Assembly: GCF_014647195.1 (NCBI RefSeq)
Contig: NZ_BMOS01000001.1
Coordinates: 118,699 to 182,698 of the forward strand
DNA length: 64,000 nucleotides
Origin: Oceanobacillus indicireducens
GTDB taxonomy: Bacteria > Bacillota > Bacilli > Bacillales > Amphibacillaceae
Direction: 5' to 3'
Each line of letters begins with the position of its first letter. The first letter of the stretch is position 1. A program made the position numbers and the translations under genes. Of this stretch, positions 21,305 to 47,956 are shown one piece after another. Under the pieces are notes generated by a model. It made no database searches and was not told where the DNA came from. It saw nothing but the letters and a program-made list of their open reading frames with translations.

Positions 21305-21798
21305 CTTTCATTCAGCGTAAGTTTTTGCACATTCACTAATTTTGGCGTTCTCATCGCCGTTCAGTTGCCCGGCGGACGGATGCTTTCCACGGGCACAGCC
21401 GAAGCCTCGACGCACAGGACGTGCTAATGCAGACGTTGCCACAGGACGTGGCGTTCTTAGTCTGTCTCGGAAGAAAACCGCTTCCTGCGGGGTCTTCGGA
21501 CTCGTGCTTTTACCGTAGGAGTCACCGTCCGCCGGGCAACTGAACTAGTAAGAATGATTATTTTGAATGGAAATTATTCCGTCACGATGAAGATTATATT
21601 TCTGAAATATTTATATAGTGTTCCAAATTAGGCCCTCCCTCGGAGCAGTCCAGACACCTCGAGACTCCTGCGGGAGGATAGGCCTGGCGAGACCCCACAG
21701 CGCGTTAGCGCGAGGAGGCTTGCCGGCCGCCCGCGGAAAGCGAGAGATGTCTGGACTGCGGACCCCGAGACGATAGCTGCACTTACGCTGATTGAAAG
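21305..21798 (+). repeat. Composite palindromic element R1, complete copy with cassette in module A
   Basis: 494 bp between inverted ends CTTTCATTCAGCGTAAGT (21305-21322) and ACTTACGCTGATTGAAAG (21781-21798). Module A arms at 21359-21379 and 21525-21545; module B arms at 21645-21660 and 21744-21759 (one mismatch). The length excess over the 437-bp copy equals one cassette (next entry). It occupies almost all of the gap 21176-21820, where phoH (ylaK), ylaL and ylaM stand in B. subtilis. Confidence 0.9.
21412..21464 (+). repeat. AGGAC-loop hairpin cassette inside R1 module A
   Basis: Hairpin 1: GCAC (21412-21415), loop AGGAC, GTGC (21421-21424). Then CTAATG. An outer stem CAGAC (21430-21434) with GTCTG (21460-21464) encloses hairpin 2: GCCAC (21438-21442), loop AGGAC, GTGGC (21448-21452). 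Confidence 0.75.
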
Positions 21799-21820
21799 TA
21801 GTTAGGCTGCGGGATTTTGG

Positions 21821-22303
21821 TTAGTTGATGATGATTTCGGTAACTCCTTTAATCGGGTCGTCTTTATTCGTGCCATCACTGAAATAAATATGTACAGGAC
21901 CGTCTTCTTTTAGTGGTTTGCCCTCAAAAGAAAACAAAAAGTAACTATTTGCAAGTTCTTCCAAGTCGAGTGTTATCTCATTGCCGTCTGCTTGTACGAT
22001 TGTAGCACTGGTTGCTTCCTCGTTCGCTCCTGCATTTTCAAAAAATGGTTTAAAAGGTATAACGTAAGTCGACTTTAAAATTTCATCCGCATCTTTACGG
22101 GGAATGGGTTTATTATCATTTGTTGCTTGAACTACTTCCCGGTTAAACCGCTCCTCTGAACTGAAAGTATGCTCCTGTTCTTCGCGCGGATCAAGCCTAT
22201 CAGAAAATGCTTCATCAAATTTAATTCTTCTGTCATCAAAAATCCAGACACTTGGATCAAGTGTAATTGGAAACTTTACATTCCCCTTTATTGGAATAAT
22301 CAT
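21821..22303 (-). CDS. Conserved hypothetical protein
   Basis: 160-residue soluble acidic protein starting MIIPIKGNVKFPITLDPSVWIFDDRRI. It has no signal peptide and no motif that I can tie to an enzyme. Relatives are common in Bacillaceae; some databases label them peptidyl-prolyl isomerase, which I cannot support from this sequence. ATG 22303 is preferred over ATG 22318 because GGGGG is nine bases upstream of it. It stands between R1 and ylaN on the minus strand, opposite to ylaN. Confidence 0.78.
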   Translation of the reverse strand: MIIPIKGNVKFPITLDPSVWIFDDRRIKFDEAFSDRLDPREEQEHTFSSEERFNREVVQATNDNKPIPRKDADEILKSTYVIPFKPFFENAGANEEATSATIVQADGNEITLDLEELANSYFLFSFEGKPLKEDGPVHIYFSDGTNKDDPIKGVTEIIIN

Positions 22304-22462
22304 TTCTTGTGCCCCCATCTTTTATTAATTCCCTATGAATCTCTTTATTCATATCAGGCAATCGATACGTTATAATTCTATCAAATTGATTCAATATTTT
22401 CACCTAATCGAGATATTTACAAGAGAAGAGCAATTCTTTTCCGGGATATCCTTCGATTTTGT

Positions 22463-22491
22463 TTGCATTTTTTTTTAGCAACCGCTAATAT
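22463..22491 (+). promoter_or_regulatory. Candidate sigma-A promoter of ylaN
   Basis: TTGCAT (22463-22468), 17 bases, TAATAT (22486-22491). The start codon follows 36 bases later. Confidence 0.5.
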
Positions 22492-22526
22492 ATAAGAAAG
22501 AGTCTTTATTACTGGAGGGGATTATA

Positions 22527-22811
22527 ATGGTTCCTGAGGTGACAGTTAATCATCGTGAAAAAGCCTACGCCCTTCTGAAGGCTGACGCTGACAAAATTTT
22601 ACGATTAATAGAAGTTCAAATAGAAAATTTAACGATGCCACAGTGCCCGGTCTACGAAGAGGTGTTGGATACACAAATGTTCGGTCTCTCTAAAGAGATT
22701 GATTTTGCTGTTCGTTTGAACTTAATCAGCGAGAATGAAGGTAAAGCACTTCTGGAAAATTTGGAGAAGAAGCTTAATATTTTGCATGAAGCCTCACAAA
22801 ATACGTTGTGA
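22527..22811 (+). CDS. ylaN: YlaN family protein, modulator of Fur-dependent iron regulation
   Basis: 94-residue all-helical soluble protein. Matches the YlaN family over its full length, including [22 protein letters not shown] and [11 protein letters not shown]. In B. subtilis and Staphylococcus, YlaN is needed in low iron and counteracts the repressor Fur, binding iron(II) (published in recent years; from memory). GGAGG is eight bases before ATG 22527. It has its own promoter and terminator and lies upstream of ftsW as in B. subtilis. Confidence 0.92.
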
Positions 22812-22840
22812 ACGTTTTGTGTATGTTGATTTTGCAGCAA

Positions 22841-22874
22841 AACTTTGCCTGAAAGAACTCGGCAAGGTTTTTTT
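22841..22874 (+). terminator. Terminator after ylaN
   Basis: AACTTTGCC (22841-22849) pairs with GGCAAGGTT (22861-22869) with one wobble, then a T run to 22874. Confidence 0.88.
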
Positions 22875-22875
22875 G

Positions 22876-23112
22876 TTTAGGTAAGTTAAAATAAAATTGT
22901 TGTGGATAAAAACTAGAATTGCTAGTGACAGCCACGTCCGGCTCCAGCGCCCAGCGACTAGCAAACTTCACACTCCTTCAATCGATAAGTCAACATCAAC
23001 TCACTGCGTTCGTTGTGTTTCCTTTATCTCATTCCGGAGTGCTCCAGTTTGTACGTCGCTAAACGGGCGCTTGCGCCTTTGTTCATTTAGGATAAGTTAA
23101 AATAAAACTGTG
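22876..23112 (-). repeat. Repeat family C copy flanked by a direct repeat
   Basis: The core (about 22902-23085) is the reverse complement, with changes, of the copy at 38858-39050; shared parts include GACAGCCACGTCCGGCTCCA, GATAAGTCAACATCAACTCA and AAACGGGCGCTTGCGCC. It is flanked by a nearly identical 25-bp direct repeat, TTTAG-TAAGTTAAAATAAAA, at 22876-22901 and 23086-23112. The short frame at 22897-23100 lies wholly within it and is rejected. Confidence 0.75.
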
Positions 23113-23123
23113 GGTGAAAGAAA

Positions 23124-23181
23124 AACTTTTTATAAATAGTATGTACTATTTATTTAATTGTGTTATACTTTATAAAAAGTT
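23124..23181 (+). promoter_or_regulatory. Large inverted repeat around the candidate ftsW promoter
   Basis: AACTTTTTATAAA (23124-23136) and TTTATAAAAAGTT (23169-23181) are perfect 13-base inverted arms with a 32-base centre. The centre holds the smaller palindrome TAGTATGTACTA and a possible -10, TATACT (23164-23169), which touches the right arm. Confidence 0.5.
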
Positions 23182-23227
23182 TCTCGATATCCTTCCGCTA
23201 AAATCTATCAATCTGAGGAGAAGAAGG

Positions 23228-24421
23228 ATGTTAAAAAAATTAAAATACTATGATTACACCTTAATCATTACACCATTGTTCTTAACAGCATTCGGCCTAG
23301 TGATGATCTATAGCGCCAGTATGGTGACCGCGGTAGTGGATGGGCTGGAGAGTACATATTATTTAAAACGGCAAGCAGTCTGGTTCGGTTTCGGCTTCTT
23401 TGGATTTCTGGTTACTTGTATATTTCCTTATAAGTATTATCAGAAATTGATGAAGTTTATTGTTATAGGTGTTCTCATCATGCTAGTTAGTGTTATTTTA
23501 TTTGGAACGAATGTAAATAACGCTCAATCGTGGATTAAGATTGGACCAATGAGTTTACAACCTGCCGAGTTTGCCAAGATTGCACTGATTATGTACCTTG
23601 CTTCCGTATACTCCAAGAAGCAAGCTTATATTGATAAATTTACGACCGGTGTACTCCCTCCGTTAATTTTAACCGGTGTATTCATCGGTTTAATTATTAT
23701 CCAACCGGATATCGGTACATCTTCCATTATCTTTTTGATCGCCTGTTCTATAATCATTAGTTCAGGTATCCGCTGGAAGCATTTAAGTATTTTAATAGCT
23801 TTCGGAATGGGACTTTTACTCCTTGTTGCACCGTCTATGGTGACAGACGAGAGGATTTCCCGCTTTACCGGGGCATACAAGCCATTTGAAACACCAGATT
23901 CAGATGGATACCAATTAATCCAATCTTATGTAGCGATTGGAGTTGGTGGGCTTACTGGAGAGGGACTTGGACAAAGTGTACAGAAATTGGGTTATTTAAC
24001 ACAGGCGCATACTGATTTTATCATGGCTATCGTCGCTGAAGAACTTGGATTCGTTGGTGTAGTTATCGTAATAGGCTTACTTGCTGTCATTGTACTTAGG
24101 GGCTTCTTTATTTCAAGGAAATGTACAGACAGCTTTGGTGCACTGCTTGCCATTGGTATTTCTTCGATGGTCGGAATCCAGGCTTTCGTTAACCTAGGTG
24201 CTATTAGCGGGCTGATGCCGATTACTGGAGTTACCTTACCATTTATTAGTTATGGCGGTACTTCATTGTTAGTATTGCTTATCTCCATGGGTGTTCTAAA
24301 CAACATTGCAATGAATGTGAGAAGAAAGGAACATGAGACAGAGAATCAACAAGATAATGCAGATAGAAAAATAAAACAACTAAACAGAGGTGGGAAACAT
24401 GGTAAATTTAAAGCATATTAA
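23228..24421 (+). CDS. ftsW: Cell division protein FtsW, lipid-II polymerase
   Basis: 397-residue SEDS glycosyltransferase with about ten hydrophobic segments. SEDS features are MIYSAS near the start, AQSWIKIGPMSLQPAEFAKI, the QAHTDFIMAIVAEELG loop and GVTLPFISYGGTSLL near the end. ATG 23228 is chosen because GAGGAG is seven bases upstream and family members begin at the KYYDYTLI helix; the longer frame would translate the upstream inverted repeat. Polymerises septal peptidoglycan with a class B PBP such as PbpB. A second SEDS gene, spoVE, is at 61856. Its end overlaps pycA by 23 bases. Confidence 0.94.
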   Translation: MLKKLKYYDYTLIITPLFLTAFGLVMIYSASMVTAVVDGLESTYYLKRQAVWFGFGFFGFLVTCIFPYKYYQKLMKFIVIGVLIMLVSVILFGTNVNNAQSWIKIGPMSLQPAEFAKIALIMYLASVYSKKQAYIDKFTTGVLPPLILTGVFIGLIIIQPDIGTSSIIFLIACSIIISSGIRWKHLSILIAFGMGLLLLVAPSMVTDERISRFTGAYKPFETPDSDGYQLIQSYVAIGVGGLTGEGLGQSVQKLGYLTQAHTDFIMAIVAEELGFVGVVIVIGLLAVIVLRGFFISRKCTDSFGALLAIGISSMVGIQAFVNLGAISGLMPITGVTLPFISYGGTSLLVLLISMGVLNNIAMNVRRKEHETENQQDNADRKIKQLNRGGKHGKFKAY

Positions 24422-27400
24422 GAAAGTCTTAGTAGCAAACCGAGGGGAAATAGCAATCAGAGTATTCCGGGCGTGTAATGAGCTCGGAATCCGAACGGTA
24501 GCTGTTTATTCAAAAGAAGACCTAGGTTCGCTTCACCGTTTTAAAGCAGATGAAGCATACTTAATCGGGGAAGATATGAAGCCAATCGATGCATATCTTG
24601 ATATTGAAGGCATTATCGAACTTGCCAAAGAAAAAAATATCGATGCGATTCATCCGGGTTACGGTTTTTTATCCGAAAACATTGAATTCGCTAAACGTTG
24701 TGAAGAGGAAGGTATTATCTTCATTGGTCCGAAAAGCAAGCATTTAGATATGTTTGGGGATAAGGTGAAAGCTCGCGAACAGGCAGTGAACGCAGATATC
24801 CCTGTCATACCTGGAAGCGGAGCTGTACATAGTATAGAAGAAGTTCTTACCTTTGGTGAAAAATATGGTTACCCAATCATCATTAAAGCAACTCTTGGTG
24901 GTGGCGGTCGGGGAATGCGGGTCGTAAATAGCCCAGAAGAAGTTTCCGAGGCGTATGATCGCACGAAATCTGAAGCGAAGACGGCATTTGGTGATGATGA
25001 GATTTATGTAGAAAAATTGTTAACGAATCCAAAACATATTGAAGTTCAGATTCTAGGAGATAGCCATGGTGATATCGTCCATCTTTATGAACGGGATTGT
25101 TCGATTCAGCGTAGACACCAAAAATTGATAGAAGTTGCTCCAAGTCTTACTTTATCAGATGAACTGCGCGAGGAAATTTGCGAGGCGGCAGTGAACCTAA
25201 TGCGTAATGTAGATTACCTCAATGCCGGAACAGTCGAGTTCCTTGTTTCAGAAGGCGAGTTCTATTTCATTGAAGTAAATCCGCGTGTCCAAGTGGAACA
25301 TACAATTACAGAGATGATTACTGGGATTGATATTGTGCAGACGCAAATCTTAATCGCGGATGGTTACGGCTTACATGGAGGAGAAATTCAAGTTCCAAAA
25401 CAAGAAGATATTATTACGGATGGATATGCGATCCAGTCAAGAGTCACAACAGAAGATCCGTTAAATAACTTTATGCCTGATACTGGAAAGATTCTTGCTT
25501 ACCGGACAGGGGGCGGGTTTGGCGTAAGACTTGATGCAGGAAATGGTTTCTCAGGGGCAATCATCAGCCCGCATTATGATTCTCTGCTAGTTAAGGTGTC
25601 GACATGGGCGAAATCATATGAACAAGCCATTATGAAGATGGTACGTAACCTTAAAGAATTCCGAATTCGCGGAATAAAAACGAATGTGCAGTTTTTGGAA
25701 AAAGTAATGCACCACAAACAATTTATCACGGGGGACTATGATACAACCTTTGTTGATAAAACACCGGGACTATTTGAATTCAGAAAATCAAGAGACCGTG
25801 CAACAAGAATGCTTAATTATATTGGGGATATCACAATCAATGGAGTGGACGGTGCAGCAAAAGTAGAAAAGCCGGAATTTTCTAAGCTGCTGATCCCTCA
25901 AGTCGATCATCACGCCCCATTCCCTGACGGCACAAAGCAAATATTAGATGAAAAAGGCCCTGAAGCGTTAGCGGACTGGGTGAAAGATCAGAAAGAAGTT
26001 CTCTTAACAGACACGACTTTCCGTGATGCCCACCAGTCATTACTAGCAACTCGGATTCGCACGAAGGATCTCGTACAAGTTGCTGAACCAACAGCGAAAA
26101 TTCAACCGAACTTATTTTCTGTTGAAATGTGGGGAGGAGCAACTTTTGACGTTGCCTATCGCTTCTTAAAAGAAGATCCTTGGGTACGCCTTGAGCAATT
26201 ACGGGAACAAATGCCGAATGTTCTATTCCAGATGTTGCTGCGTGCAAGTAATGCAGTTGGTTATAAGAACTACCCGGATAATTTAATCCATGCATTTGTT
26301 GAGAAGAGTGCAGAAAAAGGTATTGATGTATTCCGTATTTTTGACAGTTTAAACTGGTTTGAAGGGATGAAGCTCGCTATCGAATCAGTTCGAAACAATA
26401 ATAAGATTGCAGAGGCTGCAATGTGCTACACCGGTAATATGCTAGATAAAGGTCGATCAAAGTACGATTTGGATTACTATGTGAGCTTGGCAAAACAGTT
26501 GGAAGATGCCGGTGCTCATATTTTAGCAATTAAAGATATGGCCGGACTATTGAAGCCTGAAGCAGCATATCAGTTAATTTCAACATTGAAAGAAAAGACA
26601 GATTTACCAATCCACTTACATACACACGATACAAGTGGAAATGGAATATATATGTATGCACGAGCAGTAGATGCCGGTGTAGATATTGTTGACGTTGCGA
26701 ATGGTCCGCTCGCAGGGATGACTTCGCAACCAAGTGGACAGACGCTTTATCATGCACTAGAAGGACATGTTCGTCAGCCTGAAATGAATATCGATGCAGT
26801 GGAAGAACTCTCGCATTATTGGGAAGGGATTCGGGAATATTACAGTGATTTTGAAAGCGGGATGAAGTCACCTCACACTGAAATCTATAACCATGAGATG
26901 CCTGGCGGGCAATATAGTAATTTACAGCAGCAGGCTAAAGCGGTTGGTCTTGGGGACCGCTGGAATGAAGTTAAGAAAACATTCCGTCTCGTTAACGATA
27001 TGTTTGGTGATATCGTGAAAGTAACACCATCTTCTAAAATAGTTGGTGATATGGCACTATTCATGGTACAGAATGATCTCTCGGAACAAGATGTGTATGA
27101 AAAAGGGCACCAGATTGACTTCCCGGAATCTGTCATTGAGTTTGCAGCCGGATATATCGGCCAGCCTTATCAAGGTTTCCCAGAAAAATTACAGAAAGTC
27201 ATTTTAAAGGATAAGGAACCGATTTCTGTCCGTCCTGGTGAATTGCTTGAGCCAGTTGACTTTGAAGCTTTAAAAGAAGAATTGGAGAAAAAGCTAGAGC
27301 AATCCGTTACTGATCAAGACGTGATTGCATATGCACTTTATCCGAAAGTATTTCTTGACTATAAAGATTTCACGGATACTTATGGCGATATGTCTGTTCT

Positions 27401-27839
27401 CGATACACCGACATTTTTCTATGGTATGAAGCTTGGTGAAGTGATTGATGTGACAATTGAAGAAGGGAAAACATTGATTATTAATCTTGTTTCCATTTCT
27501 GAACCGAAACCCGACGGTACCCGTGTGATCTATTTTGAACTAAATGGTCAGACCCGTGAAATTCAAATTAAAGATAAAAGTATTCGTTCATCCGTTGCCT
27601 TTAGACCAAAAGTGGAGAAAGGGAATGAGAAGCATATTGGTGCAACGATGCCTGGTACAGTTTTAAGTGTAAACTGTAAGAAGGGCGATCAGGTGAAGAA
27701 AGGCGACCATCTCCTTACAACAGAAGCAATGAAGATGGAAACAAGTATTCAAGCGCCGTTTGGTGGAACCATTAAAGATGTCTATGTAAAAGACGGCTCT
27801 GTCATTGAAGTTGACGATATTTTAATCGAATTTGAATAA
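24399..27839 (+). CDS. pycA: Pyruvate carboxylase
   Basis: 1146-residue biotin enzyme carboxylating pyruvate to oxaloacetate, refilling the TCA cycle and feeding gluconeogenesis. Order: biotin carboxylase (about 1-450; KATLGGGGRGMR, EVNPRVQVEH), carboxyltransferase TIM barrel (about 525-800; DTTFRDAHQSLLATR, metal-binding HLHTHDTSG), conserved PYC domain, and biotinyl domain with EAMKMET, where Lys1112 is the biotin site. AGAGGTG precedes ATG 24399. The ftsW-pycA neighbour pair is the B. subtilis arrangement; the 23-base overlap suggests coupled translation. Confidence 0.98.
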   Translation: MVNLKHIKKVLVANRGEIAIRVFRACNELGIRTVAVYSKEDLGSLHRFKADEAYLIGEDMKPIDAYLDIEGIIELAKEKNIDAIHPGYGFLSENIEFAKRCEEEGIIFIGPKSKHLDMFGDKVKAREQAVNADIPVIPGSGAVHSIEEVLTFGEKYGYPIIIKATLGGGGRGMRVVNSPEEVSEAYDRTKSEAKTAFGDDEIYVEKLLTNPKHIEVQILGDSHGDIVHLYERDCSIQRRHQKLIEVAPSLTLSDELREEICEAAVNLMRNVDYLNAGTVEFLVSEGEFYFIEVNPRVQVEHTITEMITGIDIVQTQILIADGYGLHGGEIQVPKQEDIITDGYAIQSRVTTEDPLNNFMPDTGKILAYRTGGGFGVRLDAGNGFSGAIISPHYDSLLVKVSTWAKSYEQAIMKMVRNLKEFRIRGIKTNVQFLEKVMHHKQFITGDYDTTFVDKTPGLFEFRKSRDRATRMLNYIGDITINGVDGAAKVEKPEFSKLLIPQVDHHAPFPDGTKQILDEKGPEALADWVKDQKEVLLTDTTFRDAHQSLLATRIRTKDLVQVAEPTAKIQPNLFSVEMWGGATFDVAYRFLKEDPWVRLEQLREQMPNVLFQMLLRASNAVGYKNYPDNLIHAFVEKSAEKGIDVFRIFDSLNWFEGMKLAIESVRNNNKIAEAAMCYTGNMLDKGRSKYDLDYYVSLAKQLEDAGAHILAIKDMAGLLKPEAAYQLISTLKEKTDLPIHLHTHDTSGNGIYMYARAVDAGVDIVDVANGPLAGMTSQPSGQTLYHALEGHVRQPEMNIDAVEELSHYWEGIREYYSDFESGMKSPHTEIYNHEMPGGQYSNLQQQAKAVGLGDRWNEVKKTFRLVNDMFGDIVKVTPSSKIVGDMALFMVQNDLSEQDVYEKGHQIDFPESVIEFAAGYIGQPYQGFPEKLQKVILKDKEPISVRPGELLEPVDFEALKEELEKKLEQSVTDQDVIAYALYPKVFLDYKDFTDTYGDMSVLDTPTFFYGMKLGEVIDVTIEEGKTLIINLVSISEPKPDGTRVIYFELNGQTREIQIKDKSIRSSVAFRPKVEKGNEKHIGATMPGTVLSVNCKKGDQVKKGDHLLTTEAMKMETSIQAPFGGTIKDVYVKDGSVIEVDDILIEFE

Positions 27840-27841
27840 AA

Positions 27842-27882
27842 CAAAAAAACATCGCTCCAATTCAGGAGCGATGTTTTTGTTT
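27842..27882. terminator. Bidirectional terminator between pycA and ctaA
   Basis: AACATCGCTCC (27848-27858) with GGAGCGATGTT (27865-27875), A run on the left and T run on the right. Confidence 0.93.
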
Positions 27883-28829: not shown

Positions 28830-29269
28830 GATATTTTAAGCCTCACTTCTTCTTAGTATATGTATACACTTTATAACGTTTATAATAATATTTTACGGGA
28901 ACAATATCAAAGAAATATACCCTTAGTTGAAATTCGTCATTAATTTGTAACAGTATTCAACATAAAAGTAGTATTTACCATTCAAATAGTAAAAAATACT
29001 TGCAATGTGGGGCGTAGTTTGCTAGAAATAGTATGAGGGCCGAGTGGGTTATACTTCCGGATGAGAGAAATTCTAAAATAATGATTTGATTTAATTATCC
29101 AAAGTCATCCAGTCAATAATTATTTTATTTAAATAGTAATTATTGGTTAGATAGAATTTTATTTGATTCCATGATACAATAAAAGTAATTATCGGCTATA
29201 TTTGTCATGTGTAAAACTAGCTATGGTAATGAAAATCTTGGCTTTTTCGAAAAAAGGGGGGAAATGAGA
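28830..29269. promoter_or_regulatory. Divergent ctaA/ctaB control region
   Basis: No gene is seen. Signals: an extended -10 for ctaB, TGA then TACAAT (29175-29180); a nine-base inverted repeat CAATAATTA (29114-29122) and TAATTATTG (29137-29145) just upstream of it; and AT-rich promoter-like sequence on the minus strand near 28855-28890 for ctaA. In B. subtilis this region is bound by ResD; I could not identify a definite ResD site. Confidence 0.4.
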
Positions 29270-30214: not shown

Positions 30215-30282
30215 CTATTGTCCTTAAATATAAAATTAATATATAAGGAAACAACAACAAGAAGAAAGAGAGGTATGAACAC

Positions 30283-38373: not shown

Positions 38374-38405
38374 TGATAAATTTACTTTTCATTATTTCCT
38401 TTTAA

Positions 38406-38559
38406 CACGTATTAACGTTCTGTAATACCCCCTCCTCTAAACATGAGGGAAACACAATATGTGAAGGTGGGGGTAAACAGTCCGTAAATTCCTGATTCTG
38501 TTCAACTAACATTCATTGGGGAGGTAAGGAATTCCCCAATGAATGAAGTTTCACTTTAT
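38406..38559 (+). repeat. Structured repeat D, copy 1
   Basis: 154 bp about 80% identical to 42986-43137. It contains a long imperfect hairpin (about 38414-38487), the constant stretch CTGATTCTGTTCAACTAACA, and a second hairpin TTCATTGGGGA (38512-38522) with TCCCCAATGAA (38533-38543). It ends GAAGTTTCACTTTAT nine bases before the ylbG ribosome binding site. Confidence 0.8.
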
Positions 38560-38857: not shown

Positions 38858-39050
38858 GAACAAAGGCGGAAGCGCCCGTTTAGCAACGTACAAACTAGAG
38901 CACTCTGGAATGAGATAAAGGAAACACAACGAACGATAGTGAGTTGATGTTGACTTATCGATTGGAGGAGTGTGAAGTTTGATAGTTGTTGGGCGCTGGA
39001 GCCGGACGTGGCTAACCCTGAATAACTAAGTTATCACAGCATTTTTATTT
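38858..39050 (+). repeat. Repeat family C, complete copy
   Basis: Starts one base after the ylbG stop with AACAAAGGCGGAAGCGCCCG, contains TGAGTTGATGTTGACTTATC and GGGCGCTGGAGCCGGACGTG, and ends TTATCACAGCATTTTTATTT. The opposite-strand copy is at 22902-23085 and a fragment at 12508-12558. No coding capacity. Confidence 0.8.
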
Positions 39051-39072
39051 TATAGTACTACAACACGAAAAA

Positions 39073-39215
39073 AAACCTGCAGAACAAACATCTGCAGGTT
39101 CTTTTTGTTTTCATGATGAAAACAAAAAGACAAAGGGAGAGGAGAAACCAGAGTAAAACCTACGGGGAAGAATAAGTATACTCTGTTTGAATCAACCAAC
39201 TAACGTTTAGTTGAA
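39073..39215. other. Gene-free stretch with terminator hairpin, 15-bp palindrome and operator-like dyad
   Basis: AACCTGCAG (39074-39082) with CTGCAGGTT (39091-39099) looks like a terminator. A perfect palindrome follows, 15-base arms TCTTTTTGTTTTCAT (39100-39114) and its complement (39116-39130) around one base. Then CAGAGTA (about 39148) can pair with TACTCTG (about 39184), and CAACTAACGTTTAGTTG (about 39199) is an operator-like dyad. No reading frame was found between 39050 and 39404. Confidence 0.5.
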
Positions 39216-39404
39216 TCATTATGCTAGTATGTACAAACAAATAAAAATTATACAATATGAAAAAAATAACATATCTATCTACCCCTAGAATATGAAACAG
39301 CCAACTACTGATTTCACTAATTGTTAATAATAAGTAAAGATAAGTTTAATTATTTTTGGTTTTGTGGTAGGATAATGTCGAATCGTCGAATTGGAGTGAC
39401 CGCC

Positions 39405-39959: not shown

Positions 39960-39970
39960 GAAGGGGTTAG

Positions 39971-40459
<489 letters not shown>

Positions 40460-40464
40460 TGCTT

Positions 40465-40513
40465 GAGAGCTAACATTCGGGTAAAGTGAACAGAATGTTA
40501 GCTCTCATTTTTT
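40465..40513. terminator. Terminator between coaD and ylbJ
   Basis: Fourteen-base perfect stem GAGAGCTAACATTC (40465-40478) with its complement (40493-40506), then ATTTTTTC. The right arm overlaps the last codons of ylbJ. Confidence 0.92.
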
Positions 40514-41715
40514 CTATACTTGATAAACAAGAGGAAACCTACCCATAGGAAAAGAATTGTAATAAATGGTCCAATATTTGTAAGCTGCTGAAGTATATAG
40601 GAAAAGAAGGTATCTGTAGGCTGAGTTGCTACCGGAATTTCGCTCTCCGTTGTTTGGTAATTCAAATAAAGTGGCTTGTAGAATATAATGGTCAAGATAC
40701 TTGCAATGATTCCGTGTAAAACGCGGGCAAATACATAAGGTGAAAAGCGTATGTCTGTTTTAGCAAGGATACTGGCGACTTGCGCTTGAATAGAAAAGCC
40801 ATTAAAACCGAGTATGAAGCTCACGAGAATTACTTTCGGGAGTAAGGATTCAGTTGTAATTTCGGATATCAACGTTGCGCCAAGGGTAATTTCAAAAAGT
40901 CCTGAGAAAAGCGGAACTGCAAGTGTACCGGGAATGCCGAGCAAGAAGAATATACCTTCAAATAGTTTACTGAATAATATAGTGAAATTTACAAGGTGAA
41001 GCAGTTGAACGATAACGGAAAATAAAATAATAAATCCACCGACCATGACAAGAGTTTTAATTGATTGTAAAACTGCATCTCCAAGTACTTCTCCAAGCGG
41101 CCTGGGATCTCTACTGCGTGTCCGGTGCATTTGTTTTACTGCTTGAATAAGAATCGGGCTATTATTTTTTTTCTTCGCCTTATTAATTATCGGCTTCTCT
41201 TCGCGTATTTTATAAAACCGCATGAGTATCCCGACAACCATGTTGCTTCCATAGTGGGCTGCCGCAAGTAACGCGCCAAGCGCAGCATTATGGAATAAAC
41301 CGACGGAAATAGCTCCAAAAATAAATAATGGGCTCGAATTATTTGTGAAGGATACGAGCCTTTCTGCTTCAATTTGGGTTAATTGTTTCTCTTCTCTAAG
41401 TCTTGCCGCTATTTTCGCTCCTGTTGGGTACCCACTCGCCATTCCCATCATCCATCCGAAACTACCGGCACCTGGCACATTAAATAGCGGTCGCATGATC
41501 GGCTCAAATAAGACACCGAGAAATTTAACAACACCGAAAGCAAGTAATAATTCTGCAGTAATAAAAAATGGCAGAAGAGAAGGGAAGACTACTTCTGCCC
41601 ACATGTTCAACCCACGTAAGCTAGCGGCTAATGCTTCGTCGGGAAAATAAATAAGTAATATCGTTAAACAAATCGTAATTGCTGCTAACAAAATAGTTTT
41701 CACAAATGGATTCAA
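40498..41715 (-). CDS. ylbJ: Sporulation integral membrane protein YlbJ
   Basis: 405 residues, about nine hydrophobic helices, with nucleoside-transporter gate-like parts (GWMMGMASGYPTGAKIAARL). It resembles SpoIIM/YlbJ family proteins of the mother cell; in B. subtilis ylbJ is sigma-E dependent and its loss makes spores less heat resistant. The transported substrate is unknown. It lies convergent to coaD. The patatin-like ylbK expected next to it in B. subtilis is absent. Confidence 0.9.
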   Translation of the reverse strand: MNPFVKTILLAAITICLTILLIYFPDEALAASLRGLNMWAEVVFPSLLPFFITAELLLAFGVVKFLGVLFEPIMRPLFNVPGAGSFGWMMGMASGYPTGAKIAARLREEKQLTQIEAERLVSFTNNSSPLFIFGAISVGLFHNAALGALLAAAHYGSNMVVGILMRFYKIREEKPIINKAKKKNNSPILIQAVKQMHRTRSRDPRPLGEVLGDAVLQSIKTLVMVGGFIILFSVIVQLLHLVNFTILFSKLFEGIFFLLGIPGTLAVPLFSGLFEITLGATLISEITTESLLPKVILVSFILGFNGFSIQAQVASILAKTDIRFSPYVFARVLHGIIASILTIIFYKPLYLNYQTTESEIPVATQPTDTFFSYILQQLTNIGPFITILFLWVGFLLFIKYRKNES

Positions 41716-41903
41716 GTTAAAGCCCCCTAATACACGAGCATGTTCTGTACAACCAATTTTAGAAGGTGTAAAATAAACACGAGAATAATTGCGCGAATTA
41801 AGTACAAGCTATATATTCTCTATCAATATACGCAGCTTAGGGCTTTGAATATGACTACTATTTACAGAATATAGTTATTCGAAAGGAAGGTGTTGACTGG
41901 AAG

Positions 41904-42926
41904 ATGAAATTCTCAAAGAAAAAAATACTGTTTTATTTAATTTTCTTCATCGCTTTATACTTTTTTGCTACATATCAATTACCATATTATATTCAAAAAC
42001 CTGGGAATACCGAGCCATTAAATCCAATTGTGGAAGTGGCTGATGGATACGAAAGTGAAGGAGAAATGTACTTAGTGACGGTTAGCGGACTACAGGCCAC
42101 ACCACTCCATTATATCCTTGCAAAAATTCTTCCACATAACGAGATTAAACCTCTCCATGAAGTAATTCCAGAAGGAATAAGCACAGAAGATTATATGCAT
42201 GCACAACTTCAAGTGATGGAAAGCTCCCAGGAAGCCTCTCTTGTAGTCGCTTACGAGGCAGCTGATCGTGATATTACAATCGATTATGAAGGTGTGTATG
42301 TCGTAAGTGTTGTCGAGGATATGCCGTCTTATGGGAAGCTTGAGATGGGAGATTTAATAACTCGAATTGATGGGGTCGAAATCACTGAATCCACTGATTT
42401 AATCAATTATGTTGAGGAAAAAGCTGCCGGTGAAACAATTACGGTTGAATTATTGAGAGAAGATGAGCAGTTAACGGAAGAAATAACGTTGGATTACTTT
42501 CCAGACGATGAGACTCGAGTAGGAATGGGCATCAGTTTGGTAACCGATCGGGAAGTGACGGTAAATCCTGAAGTCGAGTTTTCCAGTGGTCAAATTGGTG
42601 GTCCAAGTGCCGGGTTAATGTTCGCTTTAGAAATTTACGATCAATTGACCGAGGAAGATATTACAAAAGGCTACAAAATTGCCGGTACAGGAGAAATCGA
42701 TTATGAAGGAAATGTATACCGAATCGGTGGAATAGACAAAAAGGTTGTCTCTGCTGACAGGGAGGGAATCGATATTTTCTTCGCCCCATATGAGGAAGGA
42801 AGAGCGGATTCCAATTATGTCGTTGCTAAAGAAAAAGCAGAAGAAATCGGTACAGCGATGGAAATTGTACCAGTTGATACGTTTAATGATGCATTAGAGT
42901 ATTTAGAAGCACTACCTGAAAAATAA
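41904..42926 (+). CDS. ylbL: Membrane-anchored PDZ-Lon-type serine protease YlbL
   Basis: 340 residues: one N-terminal membrane helix (about 8-27), a PDZ domain (about 110-195; YGKLEMGDLITRIDGVEI) and a C-terminal Lon S16 protease domain with GPSAGLMFALE, catalytic Ser235, and GGIDKKVVSA, catalytic Lys280. Relatives are B. subtilis YlbL, which cuts the SOS division inhibitor YneA, and streptococcal SepM. GAAAGGAAGG precedes ATG 41904. It is monocistronic with a strong terminator. Confidence 0.94.
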   Translation: MKFSKKKILFYLIFFIALYFFATYQLPYYIQKPGNTEPLNPIVEVADGYESEGEMYLVTVSGLQATPLHYILAKILPHNEIKPLHEVIPEGISTEDYMHAQLQVMESSQEASLVVAYEAADRDITIDYEGVYVVSVVEDMPSYGKLEMGDLITRIDGVEITESTDLINYVEEKAAGETITVELLREDEQLTEEITLDYFPDDETRVGMGISLVTDREVTVNPEVEFSSGQIGGPSAGLMFALEIYDQLTEEDITKGYKIAGTGEIDYEGNVYRIGGIDKKVVSADREGIDIFFAPYEEGRADSNYVVAKEKAEEIGTAMEIVPVDTFNDALEYLEALPEK

Positions 42927-42927
42927 T

Positions 42928-42983
42928 AAAGCTTGCGGGCAGGGTAATTAATCGTAACGTTACCCTGCCTGCAAGCTTTTTTT
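42928..42983 (+). terminator. Terminator after ylbL
   Basis: Twenty-base stem with one mismatch: arms 42928-42947 (AAAGCTTGC start) and 42960-42979, then a T run to 42983. Confidence 0.95.
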
Positions 42984-42985
42984 AT

Positions 42986-43137
42986 CACGCATAAACGGTC
43001 TGTAATACCCTCACTTCTAAACATGAAGGAAGCCCAACATGTGAAGGTGGGGTATACAGTCCGTAAATCCCTGATTCTGTTCAACTAACATTCAGTGGGG
43101 AAGTAAAGAAACCCCACTGAATGAAGTTTCACTTTAT
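42986..43137 (+). repeat. Structured repeat D, copy 2
   Basis: 152 bp. Long hairpin arms about 42995-43017 and 43041-43064 (ACGGTCTGTAATACCC with GGGTATACAGTCCGT), then CTGATTCTGTTCAACTAACA, then TTCAGTGGGG (43091-43100) pairing with CCCCACTGAA (43112-43121). The end GAAGTTTCACTTTAT contains the ylbM stop codon at 43134-43136. Confidence 0.8.
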
Positions 43138-44354
43138 CTAACGATTCGGATTGGCCCTTTTAATTCTTGTTTAAATAGCATTTTTCTGGTGGAAGGCTTA
43201 AGGATACTGTAATAGGAAAGGCTTGCTTTTTCTTCTAGTTGCATTAAGGGATGCATGTTTTTACGATAGCTGGATAGAACAGGAATTTTGATTGCTTTTT
43301 TTACATGGTTTAAATATTTTTGCCCTTGCTCGGTGATGCCGAGAACCCGGACATATGGAAGTTCAGAATTCTCGGCCAAAAATGGGACTAGTTCATCTTT
43401 AGTCGTATTCGTTAAGAGATGTGTAAAGATCCGCTGAATTCTCGTCCACGTATATCGTTTGGTTTTAATTTTACGGAACCAATCTTCCATATTTTCCACT
43501 TGGTTAGCAGTATTTTTTAAGCGATATTCGATTCCCTCTGTTACTCCGTGGATTTGCCGGAGTTCCTGGGGAGTCATTGTTTGCACCCGGTAATTCACAA
43601 GTTGAAAATAATGTTCCCAGTGATGCCAAAGAGAAGTTGTTTGTTTATATTGCTGGAGCATTTCAGCAGTGATCGCTGGAAGTGCTGCGCGAGCCTGTGA
43701 TGTTACGCTCTGATGCGCGATGATTTCTTTTCGAATACTTGTCGCACTGGCAATTTTCCCCGTAATGTCCGGATCATGAAACTCATTGTTTAATCGTTTG
43801 ATTGTATGGATATCCATCGGCAAATCCTGTTCAAGGATTGTATTTACATAACCCATGCCGAGAATATTATTCGGCTGGGACAGATCGAATTGTTTATTTA
43901 CAAGCCCAATTGCTTCGTACGCTTTCATGCTCGCTTCTGGAAAAGACAGACCTTGATGTAAGCGTGCTTTTAACTCGATTTCATACTCTTTTTTCCGTTC
44001 TTTCTGTACCAGGTTAGCTGATATAAACGGCTCTGCATTACCAGCTTCACTCCCGAAACAAATACTTGAAGCGCCGAGCGCATAAAGCAATTGTACAGCC
44101 CCTCTTGCAAAATAATCACTATTTTGCACCGCGTAAGCATATGGTAACTCTAATACGATGTCAACACCGGAGGAAAGGGCGGCTCTTGTCCGGTCAAATT
44201 TATCGATGATTGCAGGCTCCCCACGTTGTAGGAAATTGCCACTCATAACTGCAATTACGGATTCAGCCTGTGATACTTCTTTAGCTTTTTGGACATGATA
44301 TGCATGACCATTGTGAAAGGGATTATATTCGACAACGACGCCACAAGCTTTCAT
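43134..44354 (-). CDS. tmcAL: tRNA(Met) cytidine acetate ligase
   Basis: 406-residue nucleotidyltransferase-fold enzyme, formerly YlbM. The N-terminal VVEYNPFHNGHAYHVQKAK carries the HxGH motif (His14, His17); GNFLQRGEPAIIDKF and ELPYAYAVQNSDYFA are conserved family blocks. It forms N4-acetylcytidine at the wobble position 34 of elongator tRNA-Met using acetate and ATP. The stop codon lies within a repeat D copy. Divergent from ylbN. Confidence 0.95.
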   Translation of the reverse strand: MKACGVVVEYNPFHNGHAYHVQKAKEVSQAESVIAVMSGNFLQRGEPAIIDKFDRTRAALSSGVDIVLELPYAYAVQNSDYFARGAVQLLYALGASSICFGSEAGNAEPFISANLVQKERKKEYEIELKARLHQGLSFPEASMKAYEAIGLVNKQFDLSQPNNILGMGYVNTILEQDLPMDIHTIKRLNNEFHDPDITGKIASATSIRKEIIAHQSVTSQARAALPAITAEMLQQYKQTTSLWHHWEHYFQLVNYRVQTMTPQELRQIHGVTEGIEYRLKNTANQVENMEDWFRKIKTKRYTWTRIQRIFTHLLTNTTKDELVPFLAENSELPYVRVLGITEQGQKYLNHVKKAIKIPVLSSYRKNMHPLMQLEEKASLSYYSILKPSTRKMLFKQELKGPIRIVR

Positions 44355-44475
44355 TTATTTCAACTCCCAGCATTAATGTGCTATTATTGTAACAAATAAA
44401 GGAAGAGAATTTCAGCTAAAAACAGAAAAAAGATTTAGGAAAAAGATTTTATTAATTAGCTGTAAAGAAAAGATA

Positions 44476-44504
44476 TTGACAAAAGATCAATTTTCTTTTA
44501 AAAT
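44476..44504 (+). promoter_or_regulatory. Sigma-A promoter of ylbN-rpmF
   Basis: TTGACA (44476-44481), 17-base spacer, TAAAAT (44499-44504); the ylbN start is 28 bases downstream. Confidence 0.75.
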
Positions 44505-44531
44505 AACTCTTGTTGCCTAGAGGTGATGAAC

Positions 44532-45071
44532 ATGAAAATTTCTGTCTCACAGATTCAGAGAGGGAGCTTTAGTGAGCCCCTTGAAGTGGAAGAAACAGTT
44601 GATGTTTCGGAATTGGAAACGATGAATAATGATATTCGCCGAATTGGACCTGCACAGGTTAAAGCTTTATTGACAATGGACCAGAATGAAGAAATAATTG
44701 CTTCTTTAACCATTAAAGGTGAAATGACTTTACCATGTGCAAGAACACTTGTGGATGTTCCTTATTCGTACGACATTTCGGTTGATGAAGTATTCTCTAC
44801 TTCCCCATTTATTACCGAAGATGAATTGGAAGAAGAAATTCATCCGGTTGAAGGAGAAGTGCTTGACTTAAAGCCGTATATCATGGAAAATATTCTATTG
44901 GACATCCCATTTCGAGTGTTCTCAAAGGAATCCAATCCGGAAGGCGCAGCACCTAGAGATGGTGACGGCTGGAGTTTTGTTCAAGAGGAAGAACCAAAGG
45001 AACAAACTATTGATCCGCGTTTAAAAAAATTGGCGTCTTTACTTGAAAATAATAAGAAGGAAAATGAATAG
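44532..45071 (+). CDS. ylbN: YceD/YlbN (DUF177) family protein
   Basis: 179-residue acidic protein, MKISVSQIQRGSF start, with PCARTLVDVPYSYDISVDEVF at residues ~60-80, the DUF177 core. Its partner rpmF lies 37 bases downstream, as in nearly all bacteria; the family is linked to 23S rRNA or large-subunit biogenesis. ATG 44532 is favoured by AGAGGTGAT six bases ahead; two earlier in-frame starts lie within that site. Confidence 0.9.
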   Translation: MKISVSQIQRGSFSEPLEVEETVDVSELETMNNDIRRIGPAQVKALLTMDQNEEIIASLTIKGEMTLPCARTLVDVPYSYDISVDEVFSTSPFITEDELEEEIHPVEGEVLDLKPYIMENILLDIPFRVFSKESNPEGAAPRDGDGWSFVQEEEPKEQTIDPRLKKLASLLENNKKENE

Positions 45072-45108
45072 TGAATAACGTTCTTTTCATTTGAAGGAGG
45101 TGTAGGTC

Positions 45109-45282
45109 ATGGCAGTACCTAAGCGTAAAACATCGAAAAAAGTAAAAAACCAACGTCGTACTCATAAAAAACTACATGTACCTGGCATGGTAGAATGTTC
45201 TAATTGTGGTGAATTGACGAAGCCGCACCATGTATGTAAAGCATGTGGACATTATGATGGAAGAGAAGTTGTTAGCAACTAA
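45109..45282 (+). CDS. rpmF: 50S ribosomal protein L32
   Basis: 57 residues, [20 protein letters not shown] start, then a zinc ribbon with CSNC and CKAC pairs (zinc-binding, Cys-plus form). GAAGGAGG stands before ATG 45109. Full family length. It is co-transcribed with ylbN and followed by a terminator. Confidence 0.98.
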
Positions 45283-45303
45283 TCGATAGACAACAGCGAG
45301 GAG

Positions 45304-45338
45304 CAGATCACAATCACGTGGTCTGTTTTTTATTTTTT
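45304..45338 (+). terminator. Terminator after rpmF
   Basis: CAGATCAC (45304-45311) with GTGGTCTG (45318-45325, one wobble), then T-rich sequence. Confidence 0.85.
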
Positions 45339-45391
45339 TCTTGTATAATAACTAGGAGACTAAAAGAACGAATGAAAAGGGGCGAATTTTC

Positions 45392-46150
45392 TTGGGAGAA
45401 GTAATCAGCTATGAAATGAATGACGAAGGTTACGGAACAATCCGTTTGAACCGACCAGAGAAGCAAAATGCAATTTCGTTACATATGGCAGAACAGTTAC
45501 AAGAAAAGCTAGTTGAAGCAAGAGGGGATAATTTGAAATTTTTAATTCTTACAGGGGTAGAGAATCGAATGTTCTCCGCTGGTGGAGATTTAAATGATTT
45601 ACACGGAGAACTATCAACTGGTGAAGCATTCGCCAGATTAAAGCCAATGATGGATGTATTGCAGATGGTCCTTCATTTCCCTGTACCGGTAATTGCCCTG
45701 TTGAACGGGAATGCGTTAGGTGGGGGCTGTGAACTTGCGACAGCTTGCGACATCCGGATTGCTAAAGCGAATACAAAATTTGGATTTATCCAGTCGACAA
45801 TTGGTATCCTACCTGGCTGGGGCGGTGGTGCGATTCTTTATAAAAAAGTGCAACCGGATTTTGCACTTGACTGGATTGCAAGGGGAGCTATATTAGACGC
45901 CTGTGAGCTCGAAGAAAAAGGGTGGATTCACCATGTAATTGATGACAGAGATTGGGACGATGCCATTTATCTAGAAAACTATATAGCAAAGTCGGAAGAA
46001 CAGATGCGTCTATTAAAAAAACAATTCACAATCAATATCGCAGCAGATGAACTTTCTAGGCTGATGGTGGAAGAGGTGAAAAGCGCTGCTAGTCTATGGG
46101 AATCTGAAGCTCATAAGCAAGCAATTGAAAAATTTTCTAAAAAGAAATAG
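45392..46150 (+). CDS. Enoyl-CoA hydratase/isomerase family protein
   Basis: 252-residue crotonase-fold protein. The oxyanion-hole segments FSAGGDLNDLHGE and NGNALGGGCELATACDIRIA are present, including the Glu equivalent to Glu144 of rat enoyl-CoA hydratase. The second catalytic Glu (Glu164, in FGxPE) is replaced: here the segment reads FGFIQSTIGILPGWGG, with Gln at that place. So hydratase activity is doubtful; decarboxylase- or thioesterase-like members of the fold are alternatives. TTG 45392 behind AAAAGGGG. It is a single gene between rpmF and the gerR-like gene. Confidence 0.87.
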   Translation: MGEVISYEMNDEGYGTIRLNRPEKQNAISLHMAEQLQEKLVEARGDNLKFLILTGVENRMFSAGGDLNDLHGELSTGEAFARLKPMMDVLQMVLHFPVPVIALLNGNALGGGCELATACDIRIAKANTKFGFIQSTIGILPGWGGGAILYKKVQPDFALDWIARGAILDACELEEKGWIHHVIDDRDWDDAIYLENYIAKSEEQMRLLKKQFTINIAADELSRLMVEEVKSAASLWESEAHKQAIEKFSKKK

Positions 46151-46161
46151 CTAAACATGAT

Positions 46162-46189
46162 TCTATCAACCCTCACTTCTGCATACATT
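46162..46189 (+). promoter_or_regulatory. Candidate sigma-E promoter of the gerR-like gene
   Basis: CATACATT (46182-46189) fits the sigma-E -10 (CATACANT); TCTATCA (46162-46168) is a weak -35 at 13 bases. B. subtilis gerR (ylbO) is sigma-E transcribed. Confidence 0.35.
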
Positions 46190-46217
46190 GATAGCAAAGT
46201 AATGAAGGAGGATTGCG

Positions 46218-46706
46218 ATGAAAGAAACTAGACAGGATGCATGGACGAAAGAAGAAGATGTTTTATTAGCAGAAACCGTCCTGCAATATATTAAGAATGG
46301 TAATACCCAGCTGGAAGCGTTTAAAGAAGTGGCTGCTAAACTTGCAAGAACACCGGCTGCTTGTGGTTTCCGCTGGAATGCGACAATTCGGAAGCAGTAT
46401 GATTCAGCGATCCGCAAAGCGAAAGAAGAGCGAAAAAAGGTGAGTAGCCAAGCATTGCGTGCGCTCCAGGCGAATGAAGGGGCTCTTGAAATGAATGCAA
46501 TTGAGTCTGCTATACAACTTCTGGAACAATTGAAAAGTAAAGGCCCTGAAGCCGAGAATAATGAACAAGTGCAATTGATTGAGAGGCTTAAACAGGAGAA
46601 TGAGCAACTGAAACAACAAATCGAACGGTATAAAAATGCTTGGAGCGAGATGGAAAAGTTATGGAATTGGGTGGATGGAAACAGTGAACGTAATCTCGGT
46701 GTTTAA
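46218..46706 (+). CDS. gerR: RsfA/GerR family sporulation transcription factor
   Basis: 162 residues: a Myb/SANT-like N-terminal domain (about 5-60; [39 protein letters not shown]) and a C-terminal coiled coil (about 110-150; [19 protein letters not shown]). Paralogues in Bacillus are RsfA (prespore) and GerR/YlbO (mother cell). Position between the ylbN-rpmF pair and ylbP corresponds to ylbO, hence gerR. GAAGGAGG precedes ATG 46218. Confidence 0.85.
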
Positions 46707-46752
46707 AAAAACCACGTGAAGTTCGTTCACTAACTTCACGTGGAAATTTTTC
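46705..46752. terminator. Bidirectional terminator between gerR and ylbP
   Basis: CCACGTGAAGTT (46712-46723) with AACTTCACGTGG (46732-46743), A run before and T-rich tail after. Confidence 0.93.
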
Positions 46753-47248
46753 ATTCATCGTCATGATTAGGGAGTGCGGCCTTTTCCTGGACACCTTGAG
46801 GTAGCCAAATCAATGGATTCTCCCCAAGGTCCCGTTCGAGATCATATTGGGCTTTTTGGAAACCCATCTTTTCCCAGAAGCCTTGTGAATTGATCCGTGG
46901 ACTTGTTTTAATTGGTAAATTAAAGCTCTTCGCATAGTCCACCATCAATTTTCCATACCCTTTCCCTTGGTAGTCTGGTAATACTTCCAGCTTCCAGAGT
47001 GCTAAATAATCCTGTGGTGGGTCAAAATAGTTATCATATTTTTCTTTTATTCTGTATAAACTCATTCTCGCTATTAGGTTCTCCCCGATATAAACCCCGT
47101 AAAAAGGTGATTCACTATTGTTTTCAATCAAGTTGTTCTGTAAGTCTTCGAGCATTGAGAGCTCTTGGTTGCCATATTCTCGAAAGCGTTTAAATTTCTC
47201 AAGTGTTTTGAAGTTGATTAATAAGTTTTCCACCTTCACTTTATTCAT
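46751..47248 (-). CDS. ylbP: GNAT family N-acetyltransferase YlbP
   Basis: 165 residues of the GNAT fold. The acetyl-CoA-binding motif A reads KLEVLPDYQGKGYGKLMVDYAKS (Q/RxxGxG/A present), followed by GFWEKMGFQKAQYDL. The acceptor is unknown. Start ATG 47248 follows GGGGGATG on the minus strand. Synteny with gerR and bshC supports ylbP. Confidence 0.87.
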   Translation of the reverse strand: MNKVKVENLLINFKTLEKFKRFREYGNQELSMLEDLQNNLIENNSESPFYGVYIGENLIARMSLYRIKEKYDNYFDPPQDYLALWKLEVLPDYQGKGYGKLMVDYAKSFNLPIKTSPRINSQGFWEKMGFQKAQYDLERDLGENPLIWLPQGVQEKAALPNHDDE

Positions 47249-47464
47249 ACTTACATCCCCCTTAGTTTATCATGGATATTCATTCATGAAACATTAAATG
47301 ATCAAAGCATGTTAGATGTATTCTTTCTCTTTATAATTATACATTAATTAATAGTTTTTTTAAATCTTGAGGTTGTGTAACATTGTTATTTCGAATATAG
47401 TAGAATCAAAATAGTGCAATCTTGAATGCCAATTTTTATACACTCAACTTACTTGAGCAGATCA

Positions 47465-47956
47465 CTTCCATTCAGCGTAAGTGCAACTATCTTCTGGAGG
47501 TTCGCAGTCCAGACACCTCTCGCACCTGCTGAGCGGCTGGTGAGCCTCCTCGCAGGCAAGCCTGCTGCGGGGTCTCACCAAGCCTATCGACGAACAGGAT
47601 GTTCTAATGCCGGCATTGGTCACAGGACGTGACCGTACTTAGCCGGCCTCCCGCAGGAGTCTCGAGGTGTCCGGACTGCTCCGAGGAAAGATTCAATTTG
47701 TAACACTAATTGTTATTCGGGAAGTACAACTTTCATTTTGATGGAATAAACTCCATTCAAAATAATCTTCCCAACCAGTTCAGTTGCCCGGTGGACGGTG
47801 GCTCCTGCGGGAATAGCACAAGTCCGGAGACCCCGCAGGGCGATAGCCCGAGGAGGCTTCGGCTGTGCCCGCGGAAAGCATCCGTCCACCGGGCAACTGA
47901 ACGGCGATTAGAGATCCAGCCGAGAGAACGTGCTAAACACTTATGCTGAATGAAAG
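47465..47956 (-). repeat. Composite palindromic element R1, complete copy with cassette in module B
   Basis: 492 bp in reverse orientation to the copies at 15605 and 21305. Ends: CTTCCATTCAGCGTAAGTG (47465-47483) and CACTTATGCTGAATGAAAG (47938-47956). Module B arms 47504-47519 and 47664-47679 (one mismatch); module A arms 47778-47798 and 47882-47902. The cassette is here inside module B. The gap 47249-48030, where ylbQ stands in B. subtilis, otherwise holds the ylbP 5' region and a possible promoter (TTGTTT 47964-47969, TATACT 47988-47993). Frames at 47426-47632 and 47710-47949 lie in the repeat and are rejected. Confidence 0.9.
47592..47647 (+). repeat. AGGA(C/T)-loop hairpin cassette inside R1 module B
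   Basis: Hairpin 1: GAAC (47592-47595), loop AGGAT, GTTC (47601-47604). Then CTAATG. Outer stem GCCGGC (47609-47614) with GCCGGC (47642-47647) encloses hairpin 2: GGTCAC, loop AGGAC (47624-47628), GTGACC. Every stem differs in sequence from the 21412 cassette yet remains paired. Confidence 0.75.

Follow-up and report, generated by a model that had tools for sequence, protein, structure and literature searches.

Bacillaceae-1 hairpin cassettes of Oceanobacillus indicireducens as candidate ultra-small mobile DNA units

Covariation between paired bases is the standard evidence for a functional RNA. Bacillales genomes also carry miniature inverted-repeat transposable elements (MITEs) such as bcr1, which are non-autonomous and interspersed. 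The motif that concerns us here, Bacillaceae-1 (Rfam RF01690), sometimes adjoins rRNA operons. It was catalogued as an RNA that is not cis-regulatory (Weinberg et al. 2010, PMC2864571), and in B. subtilis eight matches to it were absent from earlier annotation resources (PMC8208703). A 2014 study predicted CsrA binding for the reverse complement of Bacillaceae-1 from an RMfam motif match, and said that the discoverers of the motif were unsure of its strand (PMC4333381). We analysed a stretch of 64,000 nt from Oceanobacillus indicireducens (the window; NZ_BMOS01000001.1 of GCF_014647195.1, 118,699-182,698 of the forward strand), in which an earlier note had described a hairpin cassette with covarying stems and constant loops nested in two palindromes. 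The cassette is a copy of Bacillaceae-1, and we think it probable that it is a mobile DNA unit, very small and non-autonomous, that uses its folded form to spread.

The cassettes and their filled and empty sites

The RF01690 covariance model matches three cassettes in the window, with E-values of 4e-8 to 5e-7 and scores above the gathering cut-off of 35 bits. These are the three cassettes of the earlier note, two in module A and one in module B as it had stated. Rfam takes the strand complementary to the one read there, and its loops are RUCCU in place of AGGAY (AGGAC/AGGAT). Hairpin 1 is enclosed by an outer stem and followed by hairpin 2, with constant linkers (TAAG..C and AAC) and loops of RTCCT type. 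Comparison with cassette-free modules places the start of the unit at the first base of the outer stem and its end at CGTC, which makes the inserted unit slightly longer than the roughly 55 bp first proposed:

113-169, plus strand: cassette copy 1 (Bacillaceae-1, type A), 57 bp, GCAGAC...GTGCGTC, flanks CCGAG/GAGGC in palindrome A; Rfam match 103-167 (58.5 bits); delimited against cassette-free module A
21409-21465, minus strand: cassette copy 2 (type A), 57 bp, flanks identical to those of copy 1; Rfam match 21475-21411 (54.2 bits); empty site AGCCTC/CTCGGG (slash at the junction)
47589-47647, minus strand: cassette copy 3 (type B), 59 bp, flanks GGGAG/GATAGG in palindrome B; Rfam match 47658-47591 (53.7 bits); empty site CAGGAG/GATAGG at about 15916

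Alignments of all three copies, and predicted folds of two of them on both strands, give two hairpins with RUCCU terminal loops, the first within the outer stem, as in Rfam Bacillaceae-1 (RNA z -1.9 to -2.8, DNA z -2.8 to -3.8). The two-hairpin fold of the earlier note is thereby upheld, although its five-base loops are not found throughout: hairpin 2 of the type B copy is predicted to have a loop of three bases.

The cassettes sit in larger composites, given here without strand:

21305-21798: composite, 494 bp, with 18-bp outer inverted repeats, palindrome A filled by cassette 2 and palindrome B empty
47465-47956: composite, 492 bp, palindrome B filled by cassette 3 and palindrome A empty
15600-16040: cassette-free composite, with empty sites at about 15710 (A) and 15916 (B); filled copies break at query position 111 or 317
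35-273: composite truncated by the window start, palindrome A with cassette 1, right outer repeat at 256-273
21360-21544: palindrome A, filled (read from the sequence)
47504-47679: palindrome B, filled (read from the sequence)

The 18-bp inverted repeats bound the filled composites at 21305/21798 and 47465/47956. Lengths of 494 and 492 bp thus hold for the filled elements, and the cassette-free composite (about 15600-16040) aligns over 441 bp where 437 had been given. The two palindromes are not wholly different, as had been supposed, but share an inverted 54-nt stretch at 80% identity. Nesting in two of them stands: the A cassette lies inside the common stretch and the B cassette just outside it, at non-equivalent insertion points.

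Comparison of filled with empty sites in modules A and B, and in paralogous rRNA spacers of other genomes, delimits a discrete unit of 57-63 bp. In the 23S-5S spacers of one genome (G117), a 58-bp cassette stands against a single A in one spacer; in the 16S-23S spacers of another (G244), 67 bp in one stand against AATA in another, a net 63. The 16S leaders of G145, G043 and G140 were found both filled and empty, and in other operons of G043 a different hairpin occupies the cassette position. The gap syntenic to that of cassette 2 in G150, G175 and G094 holds neither cassette nor composite (best chance matches 15-20 nt); the differences among rRNA operons within one genome are the stronger sign of movement. 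One G117 spacer (L242) retains a remnant of hairpin 2 and records a deletion instead of an empty site, and G244 has decayed copies in two spacers (L233 and L235). The cassette is thus interspersed, non-coding and present or absent at like sites, as MITE-type elements are, and these comparisons support the earlier claim that it moves as a unit of its own.

In L222 (G004) at 575-642, a cassette interrupts an apparent degenerate second 5S gene about 380 bp behind an intact 5S gene, near the apex of a small GC hairpin; the degenerate gene was judged by eye and is not recognised by Rfam. In a 16S-23S spacer of G244 (L234), hairpin 1 of a cassette is itself split by another hairpin-bearing insert, which takes the nesting one level deeper.

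An RF01690 match occurs in 120 of 249 sampled genomes of the order, about half. The O. indicireducens genome has at least 59, of which 58 are above the cut-off, a lower bound because the best 150 of 416 first-look candidates were scored; with 150 candidates scored per genome, G033, G171 and G172 have at least 148, 102 and 97. The O. indicireducens cassettes have several stem types and lie in four repeat types. Their hosts are palindromes A and B, a P/D element with converging cassettes of unlike stems, and E/F, a MITE-like element with GAGGTTGTTCAAAAAGTCC ends and likewise with converging unlike-stem cassettes; a single cassette lies between tRNA-Glu and tRNA-Val. At the P/D and E/F loci (L001, L003, L005, L010) the converging cassettes have unlike stems and complementary loops, an arrangement in which loop-loop contact is possible and a long perfect palindrome is avoided.

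Among the best 40 of 102 composite candidates scored in this genome, which cover a minority of the A and B copies, all eight split composite matches that contain a cassette recognised by Rfam fall on a single break point per module (five in A, three in B). Some split matches have other gaps (C5:70829, C5:74583, C4:6340, C2:145425). Because cassette-bearing composites break at one point per module, the simplest account of those copies is that the composite was amplified after one insertion per module; from the break points, the A and B copies probably do not represent many separate insertions.

Pairing and orientation

Public genomes were searched with a pattern whose fixed positions were limited to loop 1 and the pair that closes it, the linkers, and a single outer-stem base, which avoids selection by stem. 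Among the matches listed, the sample comprises 118 stretches, which come from fewer genomes. The covariation set held 121 distinct copies from 116 loci, L093 and L099 being excluded as doubtful or chance matches. Watson-Crick pairs fill 937 of 968 stem cells, compared with 591 +/- 10 in 500 shuffles (maximum 620), copies being treated as independent of kinship, and two to four Watson-Crick types occur at every one of the eight pairs tested. The stem differences named in the earlier note are indeed compensatory, and covariation around the constant loops is strong. The hairpin-1 loop is GTCCT in 113 of the 118 copies found by linkers and stem, a set enriched for GTCCT by the original search. Among the 104 copies with five-base hairpin-2 loops (121 examined), where the search left the loop unspecified, RTCCT occurs in 51 and RTCGT in 23, with others in the remainder.

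Two observations concern possible contacts of the loops. CGTCCTG, the sequence of loop 1 and its closing pair, matches in reverse complement the CAGGACG of GGCTCAGGACGAACG in the 16S rRNA 5' region (e.g., L208), possibly by chance. In 61 of the 121 public-genome copies an AGGA, the complement of the TCCT loops, is found at most 16 nt upstream of the TAAG linker, and a pseudoknot is conceivable.

G.U pairs are tolerated far better than A.C in RNA, and an excess of G.U is expected on whichever strand folds as RNA. We scored 198 distinct copies, after a filter, neutral between G.T and A.C, that allowed candidates at most one non-wobble mismatch in hairpin 1 and at most two in the outer stem. Read on the Rfam strand, the copies of other genomes have 9 G.T and 24 A.C in 1832 cells, and the last outer-stem pair has 0 G.T and 17 A.C of 161. 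The O. indicireducens copies have 10 G.T and 6 A.C in 438 cells. By comparison, tRNAs of the same loci have 53 G.U and 3 A.C in 696 cells (6 of 64 tRNAs were unparsed and left out). Copies embedded in operons show 4 G.T and 5 A.C in the hairpins, and for the outer stem the counts are 2 and 5; these totals come from 23 rows, of which one (L197, minus strand) is spurious. The mismatches of the other genomes thus lean toward G.U on the AGGA strand, but the lean is weak, related copies are not independent and it is reversed in O. indicireducens. The earlier note took the covariation to imply a functional RNA. This we could not sustain, as the pairs are almost strictly Watson-Crick without an RNA-like excess of G.U over A.C, and the absence of that excess on the Rfam strand makes constraint or correction at the DNA level the simplest reading of the wobble counts.

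Orientation tells a different story in stable-RNA operons and between ordinary genes. We surveyed 14 genomes around their 5S genes (142 cassette matches; 103 of 109 5S rows, six partial or low-scoring rows being left out). All 41 copies lying between -5600 and +700 bp from a 5S gene, in seven of these genomes, have the rRNA sense on the Rfam strand. Their sites are 16S leaders, 16S-23S spacers, 23S-5S spacers and the degenerate 5S gene, assigned from distance and the stretches read (G093 from distance only), and several operon copies lie just before a boxA-like sequence, the 16S 5' end or 5S. In eight further genomes examined by eye, among the matches listed, G167 has five sense copies, two in 23S-5S spacers and three behind 5S, and two of the latter, when read, both lie inside larger repeats; G120 has one antisense copy in a 16S leader. 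In G140 a 16S-23S spacer holds a sense copy, and an antisense copy immediately precedes a 16S gene. Sense copies also occur in rRNA spacers of Alkalihalobacillus and Aquibacillus and in tRNA clusters of Tumebacillus, Bacillus paralicheniformis and O. indicireducens; the L171 copy, opposite to a tRNA 369 bp away, lies outside the tRNA cluster. Grouped by our own scheme of lineage and spacer, with L187 counted once as the same assembly as G145, stable-RNA operons give about 16 sense and 2 antisense cases, both exceptions being in 16S leaders.

Between ordinary genes, 93 copies show no orientation preference (++ 27, -- 26, -+ 22, +- 18), in a count that set aside locus-end copies and 22 copies inside predicted open reading frames (ORFs) of at least 100 aa, some of which overlie tRNA genes. 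A preference for convergent genes of the kind seen for repetitive extragenic palindromes (REPs) was not observed (18 of 93). Nor does insertion follow the replication strand as a general rule, with 112 and 91 events on the two sides in ten genomes (p 0.16) and heterogeneous counts (18 to 4 in G036, and 17 to 7 in the opposite direction in G167). The rRNA-zone copies were omitted from this count in the 5S-survey genomes but kept in G167 and G120; four genomes entered it with the 150 matches listed out of 224.

Elsewhere in the window, inverted-repeat pairs lie at 12509-12558, 22930-23084 and 38858-39051 without an Rfam cassette match; those at 12509 and 39002 look like the end of the P/D-type element, which is also interspersed in this genome. 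A direct-repeat pair (38400-38536 and 42980-43115) is 85-90% alike, and a ylbH leader (RF00516, 65.2 bits) lies at 39065-39188 on the plus strand.

What the folded form may serve

If the cassette is a mobile DNA unit, its DNA would fold while single-stranded or extruded and be recognised in trans by an enzyme that reads loops and linkers and requires only pairing in the stems. Hairpin-templated mismatch correction possibly helps, and such recognition, with or without correction, could produce the near-strict Watson-Crick covariation. It is tempting to speculate that the RUCCU sense prevails in operons because transcripts as abundant as these, if they carried GGA loops, would draw off CsrA or hinder ribosome assembly. 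More tentatively, and at somewhat short of even chances, Bacillaceae-1 would form a distinct ultra-small mobile class: double-hairpin DNA, recognised in folded form by an enzyme other than Y1, with MITE-like repeats, tRNA clusters and rRNA operons throughout Bacillales as its insertion sites and with near-strict Watson-Crick covariation that mimics that of a functional RNA.

Several observations weigh against mobility of the folded DNA. The filled and empty sites compared have no evident target duplication or common target, and the ends vary by class, some copies taking in an upstream AAGGA and others beginning at the stem. Mobility is read from site comparison, with no present-day movement observed. 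The search pattern demands intact linkers and favours young copies, and hence fewer mismatches of every kind. A factor at the RNA level is suggested by the orientation bias of stable-RNA operons, and copies in predicted ORFs are also skewed, with 16 antisense and 6 sense (n = 22). As for a mobiliser, no enzyme was found. IS200-type transposases (Y1, PF01797) show no association with cassettes (94 of 120 genomes that carry them, 95 of 129 that do not; p 0.46), and PF01797 has no hit in 8 of the 42 high-copy genomes. An autonomous element bounded by two cassettes was not seen either: five inter-cassette segments, whose ORFs were inspected by eye with no family search on them, show nothing that looks like a transposase.

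While it is possible that the cassette acts as RNA on the RUCCU strand, for instance in processing or assembly of rRNA or tRNA precursors, with the other copies as debris, we regard this as unlikely. The uniform rRNA sense of the 41 copies in the 5S zone, the further sense copies in tRNA clusters and rRNA spacers, and the copies placed directly before boxA-like sequence, 16S or 5S are what such a function would lead one to expect. The antisense copies in 16S leaders of G140 and G120 are not, nor are paralogous operons of the same genomes without an intact cassette; embedded copies lack a G.U excess, and 129 of the 249 genomes have no match at all. A transcribed AGGAY strand, whose two GGA loops would titrate CsrA as CsrB and RsmZ do, seems to us quite improbable. 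The earlier note had likened the CAGGAYG loops of the two hairpins to CsrA-binding loops, and a sponge role for the reverse complement has been predicted in print (PMC4333381). csrA is indeed present in O. indicireducens and gives a hit in 117 of 120 cassette-bearing genomes, but it is widespread regardless (118 of 129 other genomes, 235 of 249 overall), and three cassette-bearing genomes have no csrA hit; viewed the other way, cassettes occur in 117 of 235 genomes with csrA and 3 of 14 without a csrA hit (Fisher p 0.05). The mismatch lean outside O. indicireducens toward G.U on the AGGA strand (24 to 9, with a further 17 to 0 from the last pair of the outer stem) would favour a sponge, and its reversal in O. 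indicireducens opposes it. Hairpin-2 loops of RTCGT type place CGA instead of GGA on the opposite strand, so GGA is not conserved in the loops of the transcribed strand, and operon copies mostly expose RUCCU. GGA-less hairpin-2 loops together with the orientation data, including the even orientation between ordinary genes, make a CsrA sponge unlikely as the reason for conservation; the eight B. subtilis matches absent from earlier annotation resources (PMC8208703) also count against it.

We think it equally improbable that the cassette is a passive palindrome, its pairing kept by template switching only and the unit copied only as a passenger of larger repeats. The single break point per module in all eight cassette-bearing split composites would fit such passage, and near-strict Watson-Crick pairing fits hairpin-templated correction. 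Left unexplained are the linkers and loops that stay constant across genera, such as the hairpin-1 GTCCT of the enriched set, and the clean differences between rRNA spacers that involve no larger repeat.

Should the mobile-DNA reading hold, a well-supported Rfam family would be a mobile DNA hairpin. RNA-motif discovery should then add tests of wobble-pair strand asymmetry and of filled and empty sites, and other orphan motifs would deserve an equal check. Filled and empty rRNA operons within one genome offer a tractable system for the movement of a unit of about 60 bp without an obvious transposase, and for why stable-RNA operons carry mainly one orientation.

Comparison with known systems

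The motif (RF01690) and the CsrA idea (PMC4333381) were already known. We found no description of the family as mobile in the literature on Bacillaceae-1 and RF01690 (including PMC2864571, PMC8208703, PMC4333381, PMC9029176 and PMC3733652, in their available portions; subscription journals lie mostly outside this coverage). Weinberg et al. (PMC2864571) treat the same motif, and the available text does not describe it as a mobile or interspersed repeat. The RMfam prediction (PMC4333381) concerns the same AGGA-strand loops that the earlier note had seen; it is a motif match, and the tests made here weigh against it. The CsrB and RsmZ sponges treated in that source resemble the cassette in having GGA loops on one strand, but the cassette has two loops per unit, one of them often without GGA.

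Among mobile and repeated DNA, the A+B composite with its 18-bp outer repeats is MITE-like, as bcr1 is, whereas the cassette itself has no evident terminal inverted repeats or target duplication at the filled and empty sites compared. REPs, including those tagged with CGTC, are like the cassette short palindromic repeats in many copies, frequently in inverted pairs and often of unlike units; CGTC REPs have no dedicated transposase and are reported from five phyla, Firmicutes not among them, and REPs are single hairpins of 20-40 bp (PMC3733652). The window cassettes also end in CGTC, an end that a strict pattern finds in only 17 of 126 matches elsewhere, and this resemblance may be taken as a lead. 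The cassette differs from REPs in showing no association with Y1 and in not being a single GTAG/CGTC palindrome of 20-40 bp: it is built of two hairpins, an enclosing stem and constant loops, in a unit of 57-63 bp.

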